The notes beneath the pieces are model-generated. The model searched no databases and was not told the DNA's origin. It saw nothing but the letters and a program-made list of their open reading frames with translations. 64,000 nt of DNA from Carbonactinospora thermoautotrophica (GTDB lineage: Bacteria > Actinomycetota > Actinomycetes > Streptomycetales > Carbonactinosporaceae), in contig NZ_JYIJ01000018.1 of the NCBI RefSeq assembly GCF_001543895.1, positions 1-64,000 of the forward strand, given 5' to 3'. Position numbers and translations under genes: made by a program. The first letter of the stretch is position 1. Every line of letters begins with the position of its first letter. Below, one piece after another: positions 3,325 to 56,649 of the stretch.

Positions 3325-4868
3325 CTTGCGATTTAACCCGTACCGCTGGCAGCGGTGTGGGTTTTCTTGATTGCGGGGTGGCGTTGAGCTGGTCTTGTTC
3401 GGCTGCCTTTGGGTCGGCCGGGGCCGCGTCCGGAGGGTTTCGGCGGACTGGCGGGGGTGCCGATCGCGGGGTGGAGTCGCAGAAAACCTCGTCGGACGCG
3501 GGTCGGGGTGAGTTTGGTCGGCGGCAGTGGTCGTTCCCAGGGCAGTCGTTGGTCCGCGACGGCGGTGCGGGCCAACCGTAGCTGGGTGTAGGCGGCCACG
3601 ATGATCCAGGTCCACCGGTCGGCCTGCTCGGGGGTACGCACCGCCGGGATGACCCAGCCCAGGGTGTTCTTGACAAAGCGCAGGGTGTGCTCGATGTCGA
3701 AGCGGCGCACGTACGCCCGCCACAACACGTCCAGGTCCGCACTGCCAGACCCGGCCCACCACAGCCACAGGGCCTTGTTCCGCCCGCACGCCGTGGGCAG
3801 GCGTTGCACCTGGACCCGCACGATCGTGCCGGGCACGATCGGTGGGACGGCGCCGGTGTGCCGGCCCCGGCCGGCGAGTTTGGGGTGCAGCCCGGACCAG
3901 GCGCGCACGGTGACCGTGCCGTATTGGGTGTCGCGGCAGGTCAACTGGGCGGTCGGCGGCGGCCAGGTGGCCGGGTCAGCGCAGGCGAACCGTGCGCCGT
4001 GCCGCCGCGGACGCCCACCCACGCCCGGGAGGCGCGGTGGCGGGTCGGCGTAGAAGACCCGGTCAGCGCGGATCCGCACCAAAATCTGCACGTCCTGCCC
4101 GGCCAGGCCTTCGCTCAATGCGATCGGGTCATAGCCGGCATCGAACACAAACAACGGCCGCTGCGCCACGCCGCCGGCGGCCAGTCGCTCGGCCACCGCG
4201 GTGACCTGCCTGACCGTCACGTCGACGGCGTCCTCGTGCGGATGGATGCGGCACACGTCGACCGGAGCGGTCCACGAGTCGGGCCGCCACGACAACTGGG
4301 CGACCCACTGATACGACCAGCCCGCCACGATCGGCTGCCCCGCCGAATGCCGCGAGGGGTGATAGTAGAACCCGCGGCCCGGGCTGGTCTCCGCGTCGCA
4401 GCGCACCCACGTGCTGGCGTCCACCGCGAACACCGGCGGCCAGCCGGCCGGACGGTGCGCCGCCAGCAGGTCCCGCACCGCATCGGTGTCGACATCACCC
4501 TCGGCGAGAGCCGCATACAGGCTGCCGTGCCCACGCCGAAACAGCGGCTCCAACGACAGGTGCGGCAACGAGGTCACCGGCCCCGCCGAACCCAGCAACG
4601 CATCACCGAGCTCGAACAACGCGTCCCGGCGCCGGCGCAGACATCCGTACCAGCCCCGGCGGAACGCCACCAGCGCGGCCCGGGCGTCCCGCCGGGGCGG
4701 GGCGGGCAGCCTCAACCCGCCCGGATAGTCCACAATGGCAGTCACGGCCACCGCCCATCAACGAGATCCTTCAGCAGAACTCGAAGATGATCAGGGCGGT
4801 GGCCGCCTCACGCCACGCCGACACGCCGGACGACGCGTGCACAGGCGCCCCCCAGGTTAAATCGCAAG
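3325..4868 (-). mobile_element. IS701-family insertion sequence, copy 1
   Basis: This is a 1544-bp element with inverted ends (CTTGCGATTTAACC at 3325-3338 and its complement at 4855-4868). CTAAG flanks both sides (3320-3324 and 4869-4873). CTAA agrees with the YTAR target duplication typical of IS701 elements. Copies 2 and 3 have exactly the same length. Copy 1 and copy 2 lie in the same orientation on either side of a MITE-like sequence. Confidence 0.88.
3333..4751 (-). CDS. IS701-family (DDE_5-like) transposase, copy 1
   Basis: This 472-residue DDE transposase shows three acidic motifs: FAVDAS for the first aspartate, FVFDAGYD for the second, and RRFDIEHTLRF for the catalytic glutamate. 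The C-terminal tail is basic and proline-rich (PSGRGPGRPKGSRTRP), probably contacting DNA. The protein matches that of the other two copies, which argues for recent transposition. The ATG start lies about 117 bp inside the element's right end. Confidence 0.88.
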   Translation of the reverse strand: MAVTAIVDYPGGLRLPAPPRRDARAALVAFRRGWYGCLRRRRDALFELGDALLGSAGPVTSLPHLSLEPLFRRGHGSLYAALAEGDVDTDAVRDLLAAHRPAGWPPVFAVDASTWVRCDAETSPGRGFYYHPSRHSAGQPIVAGWSYQWVAQLSWRPDSWTAPVDVCRIHPHEDAVDVTVRQVTAVAERLAAGGVAQRPLFVFDAGYDPIALSEGLAGQDVQILVRIRADRVFYADPPPRLPGVGGRPRRHGARFACADPATWPPPTAQLTCRDTQYGTVTVRAWSGLHPKLAGRGRHTGAVPPIVPGTIVRVQVQRLPTACGRNKALWLWWAGSGSADLDVLWRAYVRRFDIEHTLRFVKNTLGWVIPAVRTPEQADRWTWIIVAAYTQLRLARTAVADQRLPWERPLPPTKLTPTRVRRGFLRLHPAIGTPASPPKPSGRGPGRPKGSRTRPAQRHPAIKKTHTAASGTG

Positions 4869-5040: not shown

Positions 5041-6584
5041 CTTGCGATTTAACCCGTACCGCTGGCAGCGGTGTGGGTTTTCTTGATTGCGGGGTGGCGT
5101 TGAGCTGGTCTTGTTCGGCTGCCTTTGGGTCGGCCGGGGCCGCGTCCGGAGGGTTTCGGCGGACTGGCGGGGGTGCCGATCGCGGGGTGGAGTCGCAGAA
5201 AACCTCGTCGGACGCGGGTCGGGGTGAGTTTGGTCGGCGGCAGTGGTCGTTCCCAGGGCAGTCGTTGGTCCGCGACGGCGGTGCGGGCCAACCGTAGCTG
5301 GGTGTAGGCGGCCACGATGATCCAGGTCCACCGGTCGGCCTGCTCGGGGGTACGCACCGCCGGGATGACCCAGCCCAGGGTGTTCTTGACAAAGCGCAGG
5401 GTGTGCTCGATGTCGAAGCGGCGCACGTACGCCCGCCACAACACGTCCAGGTCCGCACTGCCAGACCCGGCCCACCACAGCCACAGGGCCTTGTTCCGCC
5501 CGCACGCCGTGGGCAGGCGTTGCACCTGGACCCGCACGATCGTGCCGGGCACGATCGGTGGGACGGCGCCGGTGTGCCGGCCCCGGCCGGCGAGTTTGGG
5601 GTGCAGCCCGGACCAGGCGCGCACGGTGACCGTGCCGTATTGGGTGTCGCGGCAGGTCAACTGGGCGGTCGGCGGCGGCCAGGTGGCCGGGTCAGCGCAG
5701 GCGAACCGTGCGCCGTGCCGCCGCGGACGCCCACCCACGCCCGGGAGGCGCGGTGGCGGGTCGGCGTAGAAGACCCGGTCAGCGCGGATCCGCACCAAAA
5801 TCTGCACGTCCTGCCCGGCCAGGCCTTCGCTCAATGCGATCGGGTCATAGCCGGCATCGAACACAAACAACGGCCGCTGCGCCACGCCGCCGGCGGCCAG
5901 TCGCTCGGCCACCGCGGTGACCTGCCTGACCGTCACGTCGACGGCGTCCTCGTGCGGATGGATGCGGCACACGTCGACCGGAGCGGTCCACGAGTCGGGC
6001 CGCCACGACAACTGGGCGACCCACTGATACGACCAGCCCGCCACGATCGGCTGCCCCGCCGAATGCCGCGAGGGGTGATAGTAGAACCCGCGGCCCGGGC
6101 TGGTCTCCGCGTCGCAGCGCACCCACGTGCTGGCGTCCACCGCGAACACCGGCGGCCAGCCGGCCGGACGGTGCGCCGCCAGCAGGTCCCGCACCGCATC
6201 GGTGTCGACATCACCCTCGGCGAGAGCCGCATACAGGCTGCCGTGCCCACGCCGAAACAGCGGCTCCAACGACAGGTGCGGCAACGAGGTCACCGGCCCC
6301 GCCGAACCCAGCAACGCATCACCGAGCTCGAACAACGCGTCCCGGCGCCGGCGCAGACATCCGTACCAGCCCCGGCGGAACGCCACCAGCGCGGCCCGGG
6401 CGTCCCGCCGGGGCGGGGCGGGCAGCCTCAACCCGCCCGGATAGTCCACAATGGCAGTCACGGCCACCGCCCATCAACGAGATCCTTCAGCAGAACTCGA
6501 AGATGATCAGGGCGGTGGCCGCCTCACGCCACGCCGACACGCCGGACGACGCGTGCACAGGCGCCCCCCAGGTTAAATCGCAAG
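5041..6584 (-). mobile_element. IS701-family insertion sequence, copy 2
   Basis: The element has the same 1544-bp length, ends and orientation as copy 1. It is flanked by CTAAG at 5036-5040 and 6585-6589. Its right end truncates a decayed regulator gene. With copy 1 it forms a direct-repeat pair around the 162-bp MITE-like element. Homologous recombination between the two could delete the MITE. Confidence 0.88.
5049..6467 (-). CDS. IS701-family (DDE_5-like) transposase, copy 2
   Basis: The predicted protein is the same as in copy 1: 472 residues with FAVDAS, FDAGYD and FDIEHT motifs. No disabling change is visible, so this copy is presumably active too. Confidence 0.88.
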   Translation of the reverse strand: MAVTAIVDYPGGLRLPAPPRRDARAALVAFRRGWYGCLRRRRDALFELGDALLGSAGPVTSLPHLSLEPLFRRGHGSLYAALAEGDVDTDAVRDLLAAHRPAGWPPVFAVDASTWVRCDAETSPGRGFYYHPSRHSAGQPIVAGWSYQWVAQLSWRPDSWTAPVDVCRIHPHEDAVDVTVRQVTAVAERLAAGGVAQRPLFVFDAGYDPIALSEGLAGQDVQILVRIRADRVFYADPPPRLPGVGGRPRRHGARFACADPATWPPPTAQLTCRDTQYGTVTVRAWSGLHPKLAGRGRHTGAVPPIVPGTIVRVQVQRLPTACGRNKALWLWWAGSGSADLDVLWRAYVRRFDIEHTLRFVKNTLGWVIPAVRTPEQADRWTWIIVAAYTQLRLARTAVADQRLPWERPLPPTKLTPTRVRRGFLRLHPAIGTPASPPKPSGRGPGRPKGSRTRPAQRHPAIKKTHTAASGTG

Positions 6585-9009: not shown

Positions 9010-10553
9010 CTTGCGATTTAACCTGGGGGGCGCCTGTGCACGCGTCGTCCGGCGTGTCGGCGTGGCGTGAGGCGGCCACCGCCCTGATCATCTTCGAGTT
9101 CTGCTGAAGGATCTCGTTGATGGGCGGTGGCCGTGACTGCCATTGTGGACTATCCGGGCGGGTTGAGGCTGCCCGCCCCGCCCCGGCGGGACGCCCGGGC
9201 CGCGCTGGTGGCGTTCCGCCGGGGCTGGTACGGATGTCTGCGCCGGCGCCGGGACGCGTTGTTCGAGCTCGGTGATGCGTTGCTGGGTTCGGCGGGGCCG
9301 GTGACCTCGTTGCCGCACCTGTCGTTGGAGCCGCTGTTTCGGCGTGGGCACGGCAGCCTGTATGCGGCTCTCGCCGAGGGTGATGTCGACACCGATGCGG
9401 TGCGGGACCTGCTGGCGGCGCACCGTCCGGCCGGCTGGCCGCCGGTGTTCGCGGTGGACGCCAGCACGTGGGTGCGCTGCGACGCGGAGACCAGCCCGGG
9501 CCGCGGGTTCTACTATCACCCCTCGCGGCATTCGGCGGGGCAGCCGATCGTGGCGGGCTGGTCGTATCAGTGGGTCGCCCAGTTGTCGTGGCGGCCCGAC
9601 TCGTGGACCGCTCCGGTCGACGTGTGCCGCATCCATCCGCACGAGGACGCCGTCGACGTGACGGTCAGGCAGGTCACCGCGGTGGCCGAGCGACTGGCCG
9701 CCGGCGGCGTGGCGCAGCGGCCGTTGTTTGTGTTCGATGCCGGCTATGACCCGATCGCATTGAGCGAAGGCCTGGCCGGGCAGGACGTGCAGATTTTGGT
9801 GCGGATCCGCGCTGACCGGGTCTTCTACGCCGACCCGCCACCGCGCCTCCCGGGCGTGGGTGGGCGTCCGCGGCGGCACGGCGCACGGTTCGCCTGCGCT
9901 GACCCGGCCACCTGGCCGCCGCCGACCGCCCAGTTGACCTGCCGCGACACCCAATACGGCACGGTCACCGTGCGCGCCTGGTCCGGGCTGCACCCCAAAC
10001 TCGCCGGCCGGGGCCGGCACACCGGCGCCGTCCCACCGATCGTGCCCGGCACGATCGTGCGGGTCCAGGTGCAACGCCTGCCCACGGCGTGCGGGCGGAA
10101 CAAGGCCCTGTGGCTGTGGTGGGCCGGGTCTGGCAGTGCGGACCTGGACGTGTTGTGGCGGGCGTACGTGCGCCGCTTCGACATCGAGCACACCCTGCGC
10201 TTTGTCAAGAACACCCTGGGCTGGGTCATCCCGGCGGTGCGTACCCCCGAGCAGGCCGACCGGTGGACCTGGATCATCGTGGCCGCCTACACCCAGCTAC
10301 GGTTGGCCCGCACCGCCGTCGCGGACCAACGACTGCCCTGGGAACGACCACTGCCGCCGACCAAACTCACCCCGACCCGCGTCCGACGAGGTTTTCTGCG
10401 ACTCCACCCCGCGATCGGCACCCCCGCCAGTCCGCCGAAACCCTCCGGACGCGGCCCCGGCCGACCCAAAGGCAGCCGAACAAGACCAGCTCAACGCCAC
10501 CCCGCAATCAAGAAAACCCACACCGCTGCCAGCGGTACGGGTTAAATCGCAAG
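9010..10553 (+). mobile_element. IS701-family insertion sequence, copy 3 (inverted)
   Basis: The element has the same 1544-bp length and ends as copies 1 and 2 but the opposite orientation. Its left flank is CTAAG (9005-9009) and its right flank is CTCAG (10554-10558). The usual matching target duplication is therefore absent, suggesting that recombination between IS701 copies rearranged this region. Its right end directly abuts MITE-like copy 2. Confidence 0.87.
9127..10545 (+). CDS. IS701-family (DDE_5-like) transposase, copy 3
   Basis: The predicted 472-residue protein is the same as in the two minus-strand copies, with all three acidic motifs (FAVDAS, FDAGYD, FDIEHT). A longer overlapping plus-strand frame (10089-11765) is a shadow created by GC bias. 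Confidence 0.88.
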   Translation: MAVTAIVDYPGGLRLPAPPRRDARAALVAFRRGWYGCLRRRRDALFELGDALLGSAGPVTSLPHLSLEPLFRRGHGSLYAALAEGDVDTDAVRDLLAAHRPAGWPPVFAVDASTWVRCDAETSPGRGFYYHPSRHSAGQPIVAGWSYQWVAQLSWRPDSWTAPVDVCRIHPHEDAVDVTVRQVTAVAERLAAGGVAQRPLFVFDAGYDPIALSEGLAGQDVQILVRIRADRVFYADPPPRLPGVGGRPRRHGARFACADPATWPPPTAQLTCRDTQYGTVTVRAWSGLHPKLAGRGRHTGAVPPIVPGTIVRVQVQRLPTACGRNKALWLWWAGSGSADLDVLWRAYVRRFDIEHTLRFVKNTLGWVIPAVRTPEQADRWTWIIVAAYTQLRLARTAVADQRLPWERPLPPTKLTPTRVRRGFLRLHPAIGTPASPPKPSGRGPGRPKGSRTRPAQRHPAIKKTHTAASGTG

Positions 10554-39834: not shown

Positions 39835-39840
39835 CGCCTC

Positions 39841-39877
39841 GGTCCTGGGCTGCGCGGACAGGGCGCAGCCCAGGACC
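39841..39877. terminator. Bidirectional terminator between DUF5130 gene and pepN
   Basis: A perfect 15-bp stem (GGTCCTGGGCTGCGC at 39841-39855, complement at 39863-39877) with a 7-nt loop lies between convergent genes. Confidence 0.85.
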
Positions 39878-39885
39878 GTTCCGCG

Positions 39886-44139: not shown

Positions 44140-45057
44140 GTGCCGGAAGGTCACACGATCCACCGGCTCGCCCGCGACCTGGGCGCCCTCTTCGGCGGGC
44201 GCCCGGTGCGCGCGGCCAGCCCGCAGGGCCGGTTCGCGGCCGGGGCGGCGGCGATCGACGGCAGCGTGCTGCAGGCCGCCGAGGCGTACGGCAAGCATCT
44301 GCTGCTGGGCTTCGGGGACGGGGCCGCTGACGAGTGGTCCTGGGTGCACGTGCATCTCGGACTGGCCGGCAGGTTCACCTTCGGCCGGCTGCCGGCGCCC
44401 CCCGCGCCGCCCGTCGTGCGGTTGCGGCTCACCGACGCCCGCGGGTACGCCGATCTGCGCGGCCCTGCCGTGTGCCAGCTGCTTGCCCCGGGTGAGAAGG
44501 CCGCGCTCACCGGCCGTCTCGGCCCGGACCCGCTGCGCCCCGACTTCGACCCCGAGCGGGTCTGGGAGCGGATCCGGCGCAGCCGCAGGCCCATCGCGGC
44601 CCTGTTGCTCGACCAGCGGGTGATCGCCGGGGTCGGCAACGTGTACCGGGCCGAGGTGCTGTTCCGGCAGCGCGTCCACCCGTACCGGCCGGGAGCCTCG
44701 CTGACCCGGGCCGAGTGGCAGGCGATCTGCGCCGATCTGGTCGCGCTGATGCGTCTGGGGGTCGAGGCCGGGCGGATCATCACGACCGACCCCGAGCACC
44801 GCGAGCGACGCCCGCGAGGGCCCGATGGCGTCGAGTGTGCGTGTCGTCACACACGTGTGACGACACGCACACTCGACGCCAAGGCTGAGAGCCGCGCGCG
44901 GGCGGGGAAGCGGGCTGTGGACGGCCCCGCCCGGGCGGAGAGCTTCTACCTGTACGAGCGCGCCGGCCTGCCCTGCCGGCTGTGCGGCACCCCGGTCCGC
45001 GCCGAGCCGTTCCAGGGCCGCACCCTGTACTGGTGCCCGGCCTGCCAGGCCGCTTGA
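44140..45057 (+). CDS. Fpg/Nei-family DNA glycosylase with an in-frame palindromic insertion
   Basis: The 305-residue base-excision glycosylase/AP lyase has the N-terminal PEGHTIHRLARDL with the catalytic Pro and Glu. The H2TH region is RRPIAALLLDQRVIAGVGNVYRAEVLFRQRVHPYRPG. The C-terminal zinc finger is CRLCGTPVRAEPFQGRTLYWCPAC. PEGHT rather than PELPE indicates a Nei2-like enzyme that removes oxidised pyrimidines. Between H2TH and zinc finger, codons 230-247 come from a 54-bp palindrome (VECACRHTRVTTRTLDA) absent from relatives. It lies in a linker, so activity may survive. The start is a GTG at 44140. Confidence 0.88.
   Translation: MPEGHTIHRLARDLGALFGGRPVRAASPQGRFAAGAAAIDGSVLQAAEAYGKHLLLGFGDGAADEWSWVHVHLGLAGRFTFGRLPAPPAPPVVRLRLTDARGYADLRGPAVCQLLAPGEKAALTGRLGPDPLRPDFDPERVWERIRRSRRPIAALLLDQRVIAGVGNVYRAEVLFRQRVHPYRPGASLTRAEWQAICADLVALMRLGVEAGRIITTDPEHRERRPRGPDGVECACRHTRVTTRTLDAKAESRARAGKRAVDGPARAESFYLYERAGLPCRLCGTPVRAEPFQGRTLYWCPACQAA
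44827..44880. repeat. 54-bp palindromic element inside the nei-like gene
   Basis: The left arm at 44827-44851 and the right arm at 44856-44880 are perfect 25-nt complements. One more pair leaves a 2-nt loop. It starts GGCGTCGAGTGTGCG and ends with the complement. A 52-bp copy occurs at 55183-55234. The ~22 bp to the left of each copy are also similar. It inserts 18 codons without a stop. Confidence 0.9.
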
Positions 45058-52584: not shown

Positions 52585-55140
52585 ATGACGGTCCAGCCTC
52601 GCCAGCCAAACGTGCCTGACAAGCCTTCCCTCGACGGTCTCGAAGAGAAGTGGGCTCGTTTCTGGGAGGAGCGCGGCGTATTCCGGTTCGACCGGTCCAA
52701 GACGCGCGAGGAGATCTACGCGATCGACACCCCGCCGCCGACCGTCTCCGGCTCGCTGCACGTCGGCCATGTGTTCTCGTACACGCACACCGACACGGTC
52801 GCCCGCTTCCACCGGATGCGCGGCAAGGAAGTCTTCTACCCGATGGGGTGGGACGACAACGGCCTGCCCACCGAGCGGCGCGTCCAGAACTACTACGGCG
52901 TGCGGTGCGACCCGTCGCTGCCGTACGACCCGGATTTCACGCCCCCGGAGAAGCCGGGCAAGGAGCAGGTCCCGATCTCGCGGCGGAACTTCGTCGAGCT
53001 GTGCGAGCAGCTCACGAAGCTCGACGAGCAGGCGTTCGAGGAACTGTGGCGCCGGCTCGGCCTGTCGGTCGACTGGACCATGACGTACCAGACGATCGAC
53101 ACCGACGCCCGCAAGGTCTCCCAGCGCGCGTTCCTGCGGAACCTCAAGCGTGGCGAGGCGTACCTGGCCGAGGCGCCGACTCTGTGGGACGTCACGTTCC
53201 GCACCGCGGTCGCGCAGGCCGAGCTGGAGGACCGGGAGTGGCCGGGTGCGTTCCACCGGGTGGCGTTCCACGCGCCGGACGGAGCCAAGGTCTACATCGA
53301 GACCACGCGCCCGGAGCTGATCCCAGCGTGCGTCGCGCTGATCGCGCACCCGGACGACGAGCGATACCAGCACCTGTTCGGCACCACGGTCCGCAGCCCC
53401 ATCTTCGGGGTGGAGGTGCCGGTCAAGGCGCACCCGGCGGCCGAGCCCGACAAGGGCGCCGGCATCGCCATGTGCTGCACCTTCGGCGACCTCACCGACG
53501 TCCAGTGGTGGCGGGAGCTGCAGCTGGAGACGCGGGCGATCATCGGTCGGGATGGGCGGATCCTGCCCGAGCCGCCGCGCGGCATCGACACGGCCGCGGG
53601 CAAGGAGGCGTACGCCCAGCTCGCCGGCCTGACCGTCCACGCGGCACGGGAGCGGATCGTGCAGATGCTGCGCGAGTCCGGCGACCTGGACGGTGAGCCG
53701 CGCCCGATCAAGCGCCCGGTCAAGTTCTTCGAGAAGGGCGACAAGCCGCTGGAGATCGTGATCGGCCGCCAGTGGTACATCCGCAACGGCGGTCGCGACC
53801 TGGACCTGCGCGAGCAACTGCTCGCTCGCGGGCGGGAGCTCAACTGGCACCCGGAGCACATGCGGGTCCGGTACGAGCACTGGGTGGGCGGCCTCAACGG
53901 CGACTGGCTGATCAGCCGCCAACGGTTCTTCGGCGTGCCCATCCCGGTCTGGTACCGCCTGGACGAGAACGGCGCCCCGGTCTGGGAGGATCCGATCATC
54001 CCGACTGAGGACGCGCTGCCGATCGACCCGAGCAGCGACGTGCCGCCGGGGTACACCGAGGACCAGCGCGGCAAGCCGGGCGGCTTCATCGGCGACCCCG
54101 ACGTCATGGACACGTGGGCGACCTCGTCGCTCACCCCGCAGATCGCCGGCAAGTGGGGCATCGACGACGACCTGTTCCAGCGGGTCTTCCCGATGGACCT
54201 GCGGCCGCAGGCCCATGAGATCATCCGGACCTGGCTGTTCTCCACCGTGGTCCGCTCCCACCTGGAGTTCGGGCAGCTTCCGTGGAAGAACGCCGCGATC
54301 TCCGGGTGGATCCTCGACCCGGACCGCAAGAAGATGTCCAAGTCCAAGGGCAACGTCATCACCCCGATGGGGCTGCTCGAGGAGTTGGGCTCCGACGCGG
54401 TCCGGTACTGGGCGGCGATGGGCCGGCCGGGCACCGACACCGCCTTCGACAAGGGCCAGATGAAGATCGGCCGCCGGCTCGCGATCAAGATCCTGAACGC
54501 GAGCAAGTTCGCGCTGAGCTTCGGCCTGCCCCCGGCTGAGGCAGGGCTCACCGAGCCGGTTGACCGGGCCCTGCTCGCCGACCTCGCCCAAGTCGTCGAG
54601 GACGCCACCGCGTCGTTCGAGGCGTACGACTACACCCGCGCCCTGGAGCGGGCGGAGGGCTTCTTCTGGGCCTTCTGCGACGACTACATCGAGCTGGTCA
54701 AGGCCCGGGCGTATGGAGAGTTCGGCGACCAGGCCCGCGACTCCGCGCGGGTCGCGCTGACCACCGCGCTGTCGGTGCTGCAGCGGCTGTTCGCGCCGTT
54801 CCTGCCGTTCGTCACCGAGGAGGTCTGGTCCTGGTGGCAGGACGGCTCGATCCACCGGGCGAGCTGGCCGTTGGCGGACGAGCTGCGCGGGCTGGCCGCC
54901 GGGGCGGACACCGCCGTGATGAGCGCCGCGACCGAGGTCCTCACCCAGATCCGCAAGGCCAAGAGCGACGCGAAGCTGTCGATGCGGGCCGACGTCGCCC
55001 ACGTGACCGTCCGCGGCCCGGAGAAGCTGCTCACCCCGGTCCGGGCCGTCGAGCGCGACCTCGCCGCTGCCGGCCGGGTCCAGCGGTTCGAGCTGGTGGA
55101 GACCGAGGGCGACACGCTCGAGGTCGAGGTCACGCTCTGA
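52585..55140 (+). CDS. valS: Valine--tRNA ligase
   Basis: The 851-residue class I synthetase has the HIGH-like motif SGSLHVGHVFSYTHTD, an editing domain around residues 210-350 and the KMSKS loop RKKMSKSKGNVITP. The anticodon-binding helical domain follows (ELVKARAYGEFGDQARDSARVALTTAL). The C-terminal coiled coil of proteobacterial ValS is replaced by a short beta-type tail. This is the archaeal-like form found in actinobacteria. ATG 52585 has TACCAT 8 nt upstream. A 52-bp palindrome lies 42 bp beyond the stop and could act as its terminator. Confidence 0.95.
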   Translation: MTVQPRQPNVPDKPSLDGLEEKWARFWEERGVFRFDRSKTREEIYAIDTPPPTVSGSLHVGHVFSYTHTDTVARFHRMRGKEVFYPMGWDDNGLPTERRVQNYYGVRCDPSLPYDPDFTPPEKPGKEQVPISRRNFVELCEQLTKLDEQAFEELWRRLGLSVDWTMTYQTIDTDARKVSQRAFLRNLKRGEAYLAEAPTLWDVTFRTAVAQAELEDREWPGAFHRVAFHAPDGAKVYIETTRPELIPACVALIAHPDDERYQHLFGTTVRSPIFGVEVPVKAHPAAEPDKGAGIAMCCTFGDLTDVQWWRELQLETRAIIGRDGRILPEPPRGIDTAAGKEAYAQLAGLTVHAARERIVQMLRESGDLDGEPRPIKRPVKFFEKGDKPLEIVIGRQWYIRNGGRDLDLREQLLARGRELNWHPEHMRVRYEHWVGGLNGDWLISRQRFFGVPIPVWYRLDENGAPVWEDPIIPTEDALPIDPSSDVPPGYTEDQRGKPGGFIGDPDVMDTWATSSLTPQIAGKWGIDDDLFQRVFPMDLRPQAHEIIRTWLFSTVVRSHLEFGQLPWKNAAISGWILDPDRKKMSKSKGNVITPMGLLEELGSDAVRYWAAMGRPGTDTAFDKGQMKIGRRLAIKILNASKFALSFGLPPAEAGLTEPVDRALLADLAQVVEDATASFEAYDYTRALERAEGFFWAFCDDYIELVKARAYGEFGDQARDSARVALTTALSVLQRLFAPFLPFVTEEVWSWWQDGSIHRASWPLADELRGLAAGADTAVMSAATEVLTQIRKAKSDAKLSMRADVAHVTVRGPEKLLTPVRAVERDLAAAGRVQRFELVETEGDTLEVEVTL

Positions 55141-55182
55141 GCCGCCGGCTCCGCGACGGCCGCGAGCCCGCGAGGCCCGGTC

Positions 55183-55234
55183 GCGTCGAGTGTGCGTGTC
55201 GTCACATGCATGTGACGACACGCACACTCGACGC
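55183..55234. repeat. 52-bp perfect palindrome between valS and folC
   Basis: The arms of 26 nt at 55183-55208 and 55209-55234 are exact complements with no spacer. The arm starts GCGTCGAGTGTGCGTG and is the same for 22 nt as the copy inside the nei-like gene. It may serve as a valS terminator here. About 22 bp before it are also shared with the other copy. Confidence 0.92.
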
Positions 55235-55302: not shown

Positions 55303-56649
55303 GTGAGCAAGCCGGTCGATCCGCAGGTGGCTGAGGAATTCCGGCGGGTCGAGAAGGAACTGACGGCCCGCTTCCCCGAGTCCCGTCCCCAGCCTTCGCT
55401 GGACCGCATCCGCGCGCTCGTCGACCTGCTGGGCGAGCCGCAGCGGGCGTACCCGGTCATCCACGTCACGGGCACGAACGGCAAGACGTCGACCTCCCGG
55501 ATGATCGACACGCTGCTGCGCGCGTTCAACCTGCGCACCGGCCGGTACACGAGCCCGCACGTGGAGTCGGTCACCGAGCGGATCAGCATCGACGGGGAAC
55601 CGATCAGCGTCGCGCGGTTCGTGGAGACCTACGACGACGTCGCCCCGTACGTGCGGCTGGTGGACGCCCAGCAGCCGGTGCGGATGTCGTACTTCGAGGT
55701 GCTGGTCGGCATGGCGTACGCGGCGTTCGCCGACGCGCCGGTCGACGTGGCCGTCGTCGAGGTCGGCATGGGCGGTGCCTGGGACGCGACCAACGTCGCG
55801 GACGGCCAGGTCGCCGTGGTGACGCCGATCTCGCTGGACCACACGCACTACCTCGGCGACACGACCGAGCAGATCGCGAGGGAGAAGGCCGGGATCATCA
55901 AGCCCGGCACGCTCGCGATCCTGGCCCAGCAGCCGCTGGACGCCGCGCAGGTGCTGCTGCGCCGGGCGGTCGAGGTGGACGCGACCGTCGCCCGCGAGGG
56001 CCTGGAGTTCGGCGTGCTGCGCCGCGACGTGGCCATGGGCGGCCAACTGCTGCGGCTGCAGGGCCTCGGCGGCGTGTACGACGAGGTGTTCCTGCCGCTG
56101 CACGGCGCTCACCAGGCGCACAACGCGTCCTGCGCACTGGCCGCGGTGGAGGCGTTCTTCGGCGGCAAGCAGCAGTTGGACGCGGACGTGGTCCGCCAGG
56201 CGTTCGCGACCGTGACCTCGCCCGGGCGGCTGGAGGTCGTCCGCCGGGGGCCGACCGTGCTGCTGGACGCCGCCCACAACCCGGCCGGCGCCCGGGCGAC
56301 CGCGGAGGCGCTCACCGAGGCGTTCACGTTCACCCGGCTCGTCGGCGTCATCGGCATGATGGGCGACAAGGACGTCCAGGGGGTGCTGGAAGCGTTCGAA
56401 CCGGTGCTGGACCAGGTGGTGGTCACGCAGGCCGCCACGGACCGCGCCCTCCCAGCCGGCGAGCTGGCCGAGGTCGCGCGGGAGGTGTTCGGTGAGCACC
56501 GGGTCGAGGTGGCGCCGCGCATGGACGACGCCCTGGACACGGCCATCCGGCTCGCCGAGGAGGAGGGCGAGCTGGGTGGCGGGGGCGTGCTGGTCACCGG
56601 TTCGGTCGTCACGGTGGGGGAAGCCCGCCGGCTGGTGAGGAAGAGCTGA
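55303..56649 (+). CDS. folC: Bifunctional folylpolyglutamate synthase/dihydrofolate synthase
   Basis: The 448-residue Mur-ligase-fold enzyme adds glutamates to folates. ATP-binding loop HVTGTNGKTSTSRMIDTLL, then TSPHVESVTERI, VAVVEVGMGGAWDATN and SLDHTHYLGDT are all conserved. The C-terminal domain carries LLDAAHNPAGARATAEAL and IGMMGDKDVQG. GTG 55303 is exactly 7 nt after TAGACT (55290-55295), so leaderless initiation is likely. DUF4233 follows in the conserved actinobacterial order. Confidence 0.95.
   Translation: MSKPVDPQVAEEFRRVEKELTARFPESRPQPSLDRIRALVDLLGEPQRAYPVIHVTGTNGKTSTSRMIDTLLRAFNLRTGRYTSPHVESVTERISIDGEPISVARFVETYDDVAPYVRLVDAQQPVRMSYFEVLVGMAYAAFADAPVDVAVVEVGMGGAWDATNVADGQVAVVTPISLDHTHYLGDTTEQIAREKAGIIKPGTLAILAQQPLDAAQVLLRRAVEVDATVAREGLEFGVLRRDVAMGGQLLRLQGLGGVYDEVFLPLHGAHQAHNASCALAAVEAFFGGKQQLDADVVRQAFATVTSPGRLEVVRRGPTVLLDAAHNPAGARATAEALTEAFTFTRLVGVIGMMGDKDVQGVLEAFEPVLDQVVVTQAATDRALPAGELAEVAREVFGEHRVEVAPRMDDALDTAIRLAEEEGELGGGGVLVTGSVVTVGEARRLVRKS

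Follow-up and report, generated by a model that had tools for sequence, protein, structure and literature searches.

A genome-private dispersed palindrome at gene ends of Carbonactinospora thermoautotrophica: a putative terminator hairpin and apparent attachment site of a serine-integrase element

Results and discussion

A palindrome whose two 23-nt arms (CGTCGAGTGTGCGTGTCGTCACA) enclose a variable centre of 0–9 nt is present in about 65 copies in the whole genome of Carbonactinospora thermoautotrophica, and represents a dispersed extragenic hairpin element private to this genome. With regard to its role and history, we lean towards a reading in which the palindrome would be a gene-end terminator, mirror-copied from an imperfect hairpin, spread partly within two larger repeats—designated here as famA and famB—and also used as an integrase attachment site. 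The genome analysed comprises 5.13 Mb in 19 contigs (given below as C10, C13 and so on), strain H1 of the species having a circular chromosome of 5.25 Mb (PMC4735515); the window, i.e. the whole stretch of 64,000 nucleotides from which the analysis started, corresponds to C18:1–64000.

The family in the window and in the whole genome

Both palindromes of the window are perfect and are, at the same time, its two longest perfect inverted repeats. Copy 1 (44829–44878, no strand assigned) has the centre CACG and its stem extends to 44826–44881, i.e. 27-nt arms (44826–44852 and 44855–44881) that are 100% complementary with a gap of 2 nt; copy 2 (55184–55233, likewise without strand) has the centre TGCA and forms, as 55183–55208 and 55209–55234, 26-nt arms that are also 100% complementary. 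Their arm sequences do not differ at all, and the predicted folding energies are −53.4 and −48.5 kcal/mol, respectively. Copy 2 occupies the gap between the genes called putatively valS (52612–55140, plus strand) and folC (55303–56649, plus strand) in the preliminary description, 43 nt past the stop of the former (55140) and 69 nt ahead of the latter. That description had thus recognised both copies and their common arm correctly; its element size of 54 bp needs, however, to be revised, the shared element being 46 nt of arms plus the variable centre, a total of 50 bp for either copy in the window. It had also supposed that the left flank belonged to a larger unit, and this is borne out by the left flank of copy 1 (44797–44828, plus strand; CACCGCGAGCGACGCCCGCGAGGGCCCG), which matches the famB repeat. 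The right flank (44879–44919, plus strand, right end approximate; GCCGCGCGCGGGCGGGGAAGCGGGC) resembles the right part of famB, and the left flank of copy 2 (55166–55183, plus strand; GCCCGCGAGGCCCGGTCG) is similar to the famB left flank.

Over the whole genome, a 24-nt arm pattern allowing up to three mismatches yielded 66 forward and 65 reverse matches, whereas the reversed pattern used as a control yielded 0, so that chance is excluded as the source of the matches. The suspicion of a dispersed repeat family, raised originally from two copies, is thereby substantiated by a count of about 65. The anatomy was surveyed in stretches covering 2.84 Mb of the genome, in which 75 elements were located. 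Both arms could be matched, with no more than three mismatches, in 55 copies, and in 38 of these both are perfect; there are 23 different centres, 0–9 nt long, the commonest being CGCG (21 copies), and 39 of the 55 centres are palindromic themselves. At 12 copy-positions, representing 7 distinct changes, the two arms depart from the consensus symmetrically; the 15 asymmetric departures come mostly from a few diverged copies. Directly beyond the 23-nt arms, complementarity drops to the background without a clear excess (18 of 55 copies at position −1, 7 of 55 at −2), which means that the unit has sharp ends. No target duplication of 2–9 nt was in excess over shuffled flanks; a GGTGG repeat at C16:111367 is a single case within chance. 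An insertion into the loop of an earlier hairpin was considered, too, and rejected, the flank complementarity being the same as in shuffled flanks.

The palindrome was absent from 293 other genomes of the order; in this set, it should be pointed out, the source genome was the sole representative of its family. Exact 19-mers of the palindrome were not found in IMG/VR and gave just two isolated matches, in Nocardia and Aquabacterium, in genome_contigs, with the source genome's own records possibly excluded from both collections. Rfam returned nothing except tRNAs at the gathering score; weak matches to microRNAs are as expected by chance from a long perfect stem and were dismissed. Literature searches revealed no published description of the palindrome family, in agreement with the earlier remark that no described actinomycete family of this kind is known.

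The copy within the DNA glycosylase gene

Copy 1 lies in frame in a gene of the Fpg/Nei-family DNA glycosylase (44140–45057, plus strand), between the parts encoding the H2TH domain and the zinc finger, both domains being intact. The protein consists of the Fapy N-terminal part, H2TH and the zinc finger, the last one scoring 21.2 against a cut-off of 21.3. The homologue from Tsukamurella, 57% identical in the alignment, is shorter by about 30 residues between the conserved PEH and the Y-x-Y that precedes the zinc finger; of the extra residues in the present protein, approximately 17 are encoded by the palindrome. The homologue from Nonomuraea likewise has no extra segment, so the alignment confirms that the linker is longer than in two palindrome-free homologues; in 35 relatives from the order, the match stops at residues 222–228, right ahead of the insert.

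That the insertion is in frame is well supported, as stated in the preliminary description, but the inserted unit appears to be a composite repeat of left flank, palindrome and right flank rather than the palindrome alone. The 18 inserted codons proposed there do not describe the event, since 50 bp is not divisible by three. The glycosylase copy, as well as the copy at C13:28627, is found within famB-like sequence, and it may represent a tolerated in-frame hit by the famB-palindrome composite.

Position at gene ends and the putative terminator role

With a gene caller trained on 1041 long genes, 73 copies could be classified. Gaps between codirectional genes hold 38 of them, convergent gaps 26 and divergent gaps 8; the only one inside a gene is the glycosylase copy, whereas a 50-nt window placed at random falls within a gene in about 75% of cases. 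Typically, the palindrome is positioned 0–30 nt past a stop codon, with a median stop-side distance of 34.5 nt versus 182 nt for random intergenic windows. If copies with related flanks are removed, 36 independent settings are left, for which the preference is still clear: of the 35 intergenic copies, 23 have a stop codon no more than 40 nt away, as do 475 of 3000 windows placed randomly between genes (p = 7e-11); convergent gaps are preferred over divergent ones with an odds ratio of 5.8 (p = 4e-4). The other strong intergenic hairpins of the genome are concentrated there as well, 104 of 243 being 0–20 nt past a stop.

Transcribed from either side, a hairpin of 23–27 bp would end the mRNA or protect its 3′ end, and the palindrome may thus act as a bidirectional intrinsic terminator lacking a U-run. 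It has the stable hairpin soon after the stop codon that characterises intrinsic terminators; the T-run past the hairpin is missing, the first 8 nt beyond the palindrome containing 1.2 T on average. Terminators without the U-run are described for actinobacteria. Of 39 gene ends carrying the palindrome, about 1 (3%) had a second perfect stem of at least 9 bp within 100 nt, as against 17% of length-matched ends (binomial p of about 0.006, calculated by hand). A rank test over all stem lengths between palindrome and length-matched gene ends was not significant (p = 0.39–0.44), and with the palindrome excised and the length matched, the folding energies revealed remaining hairpins equally strong with and without the palindrome; a comparison with the palindrome masked instead was discarded as confounded by length. 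Since the excised-energy comparison shows no difference, it is the perfect-stem measure that speaks for a replacement of native terminators. The eight copies in divergent gaps stand against a terminator, and the position at gene ends could also arise if insertions were least harmful there. In view of the two null tests, the terminator role is considered as no more than probable.

Origin and spread

In addition to the perfect palindromes, the genome contains a shorter, imperfect hairpin with the stem CGTCGAGTGTGC/GCACACTCGACG and the loop GTGTCGTCACGCGAA. Nine copies of this kind were recognised—12-bp stem, loop GTGTCGTCAC[A/G]CG[A/G][A/G], some of the stems being diverged—each of them with a stop codon no more than 60 nt away; a search of 296 other genomes of the class gave no match to the hairpin. 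If its left half is mirrored after CACACG, the result is exactly the commonest palindrome, i.e. that with the centre CGCG. Moreover, the loop end of this presumed precursor recurs with its first bases in the centres CGAACGCG, CGGAGGCG, CGAGCTCG and CGAG, such centres as CGAACGCG and CGGAGGCG containing its CGAA or CGGAG. From these correspondences we infer a mirror-copy origin, in which template-switching during replication would turn the imperfect palindrome into a perfect one; the variable centres together with the precursor copies may record how perfect palindromes are formed. The spread would have followed the mirror copying.

A part of the copies may have spread as passengers of the larger repeats. 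The famA repeat, a spacer near a repeated small gene, holds about 17 palindrome copies, an unrelated hairpin occupying the palindrome's slot at other famA loci. The famB repeat is a tandem unit of roughly 91 bp; at C17:439640–440130, one unit carries the palindrome and two do not.

A serine-integrase element in the centre of the palindrome

Two half-palindromes, at C17:643292 (plus strand) and 652972 (minus strand), flank an element of 9.7 kb (C17:643292–652994) that sits exactly in the centre of one palindrome. The element is lower in G+C and encodes an HNH protein and a serine recombinase of 517 residues with Resolvase, Recombinase and Zn ribbon parts, the gene of the latter adjoining one element end; its remaining tested proteins had no match in Pfam. 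The recombinase shares 43–44% identity with the integrases of two Streptomyces phages, Samy and Dubu. The central ACGCG of the palindrome recurs in both element ends. With attL and attR halves flanking an element that has its own integrase, the palindrome is recognised also as the attachment site. Two further element ends, beside half-palindromes with famA-like flanks, were found at the contig ends of C16 and C13; as the assembly contains a single integrase gene, a second insertion is implied, its copy having collapsed in the assembly. The palindrome would be used in this way because it is abundant and lies outside genes, and such serine-integrase sites could offer a multi-site landing pad for genome engineering.

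Comparison with known systems and alternative explanations

REPINs consist of two inverted units of 21–25 nt with a short diverse spacer, occur extragenically in dozens, and have sharp boundaries and no target duplication (PMC8049555). The palindrome resembles them in its inverted pair of units of about 21–25 nt, the short diverse spacer, hairpin formation, extragenic copies in the range of tens to hundreds and its being a target of a mobile element; it differs by the lack of a RAYT, the near-perfect symmetry, the private sequence and the strong proximity to stop codons. A search of the whole genome with the RAYT model NF047646 gave no match above the cut-off, although the control search was positive, and therefore the palindrome is not a REPIN by membership. 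The Y1 transposases of the genome are of the IS200/IS605 type, and at their copies, the only transposase genes so compared, no arm match that would indicate shared terminal repeats was present in the stretches read; a derivation from IS200/IS605 was thus set aside. The missing target duplication sets the palindrome apart from MITEs.

A selfish REPIN-like element, whose single-stranded hairpin would be moved by a transposase and would survive mainly at gene ends, agrees with the inverted units, the diverse spacer, the sharp boundaries and the lack of target duplication (PMC8049555); it appears rather unlikely, nevertheless, given the missing RAYT, the empty arm scan at the ends of the Y1 transposases and a peak at 0–30 nt after the stop sharper than a general avoidance of genes predicts. 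The best reading is a REPIN-like dispersed palindrome serving as a bidirectional 3′-end or terminator hairpin. Only tentatively would we go further and see in it a RAYT-free REPIN-like population of template-switched terminator hairpins, spread by an undescribed route, that provides 3′-end hairpins at dozens of genes and a multi-copy landing pad for a serine integrase. In a single genome, dozens of gene ends would then apparently have taken up one hairpin sequence naturally, in the absence of the transposase by which such palindromes are known to spread.

The perfect dyad symmetry, the genome-wide repetition and the uneven spread (a 336-kb gap on C18, p = 0.011) might also suggest a binding site of a dedicated chromosome-organising or regulatory protein. 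Known sites of these kinds are much shorter than the palindrome, whose 46 conserved bases exceed the usual needs of binding, and neither the variable centre nor the gene-end position is expected from such a site, for which no protein was identified; this explanation is improbable. Even less can be said for the palindromes being remnants of the serine-integrase element or having been spread by it, despite the insertion into the palindrome centre with the common ACGCG, since most copies are intact palindromes without any element sequence and the assembly has one integrase gene. A pairing of DNA uptake sequences into terminators, of the kind seen in Neisseria or Haemophilus, is hardly credible at all: inverted pairs are reported as terminator hairpins in work cited in a passage of PMC2267715, but outside the palindromes the frequency of the arm's 10-mers is close to the expected one, exceeding it at most about threefold, whereas true uptake sequences occur singly and hundreds of times. 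That reading is largely refuted.

The preliminary description had likened the element to the palindromic elements of Rickettsia, with which it shares a palindromic repeat in frame within a protein gene. The insertion in frame is recurrent there, whereas here 1 of 73 copies is genic against about three-quarters of random windows, and the Rickettsia-type reading is therefore rejected in favour of an extragenic family. Another likeness, by description and not by sequence, is that to TRIT, a sequence-related hairpin reportedly recurring at gene ends of a high-GC actinobacterium; one related hairpin at many gene ends is common to both, the difference being that the precursor hairpin of the present family is unmatched in the 296 other genomes of the class. 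TRIT is named as a terminator motif of M. tuberculosis, from the RNIE paper (Gardner 2011), in a passage of PMC3526491. With regard to the integrase element, REPs are known as insertion targets of IS transposases (PMC1525189), and the likeness consists in a mobile element inserting at dispersed extragenic palindromes, the enzyme here being, however, a phage-type serine integrase instead of an IS transposase.

Other repeats and gaps

The palindrome-free stretch of 336 kb mentioned above covers 319–655 kb of C18; another one, at 640–1168 kb of C19, was read in part and contains no exact palindrome match. Three hairpins of the window with nearly identical arms (CCAGCCCCGGCGGAACGCC), at 4650–4701, 6366–6417 and 9177–9228, form a local repeat and are unrelated to the palindrome. 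A second, more diverged hairpin family has arms like GGTCATGGGCYGCGCACG and 13 members with a stem of at least 13 bp; hairpins of this type are situated, among others, at C17:270808, C17:480276 and C19:226401, and in the window at 39840–39878. Near-identical repeated gene ends occur at C14:179222, C14:183107, C10:2317 and C18:278447, and the hairpin ATGGGTGTGCGTGCC...GGCACGCACACCCAT located near them resembles the inner arm of the palindrome.
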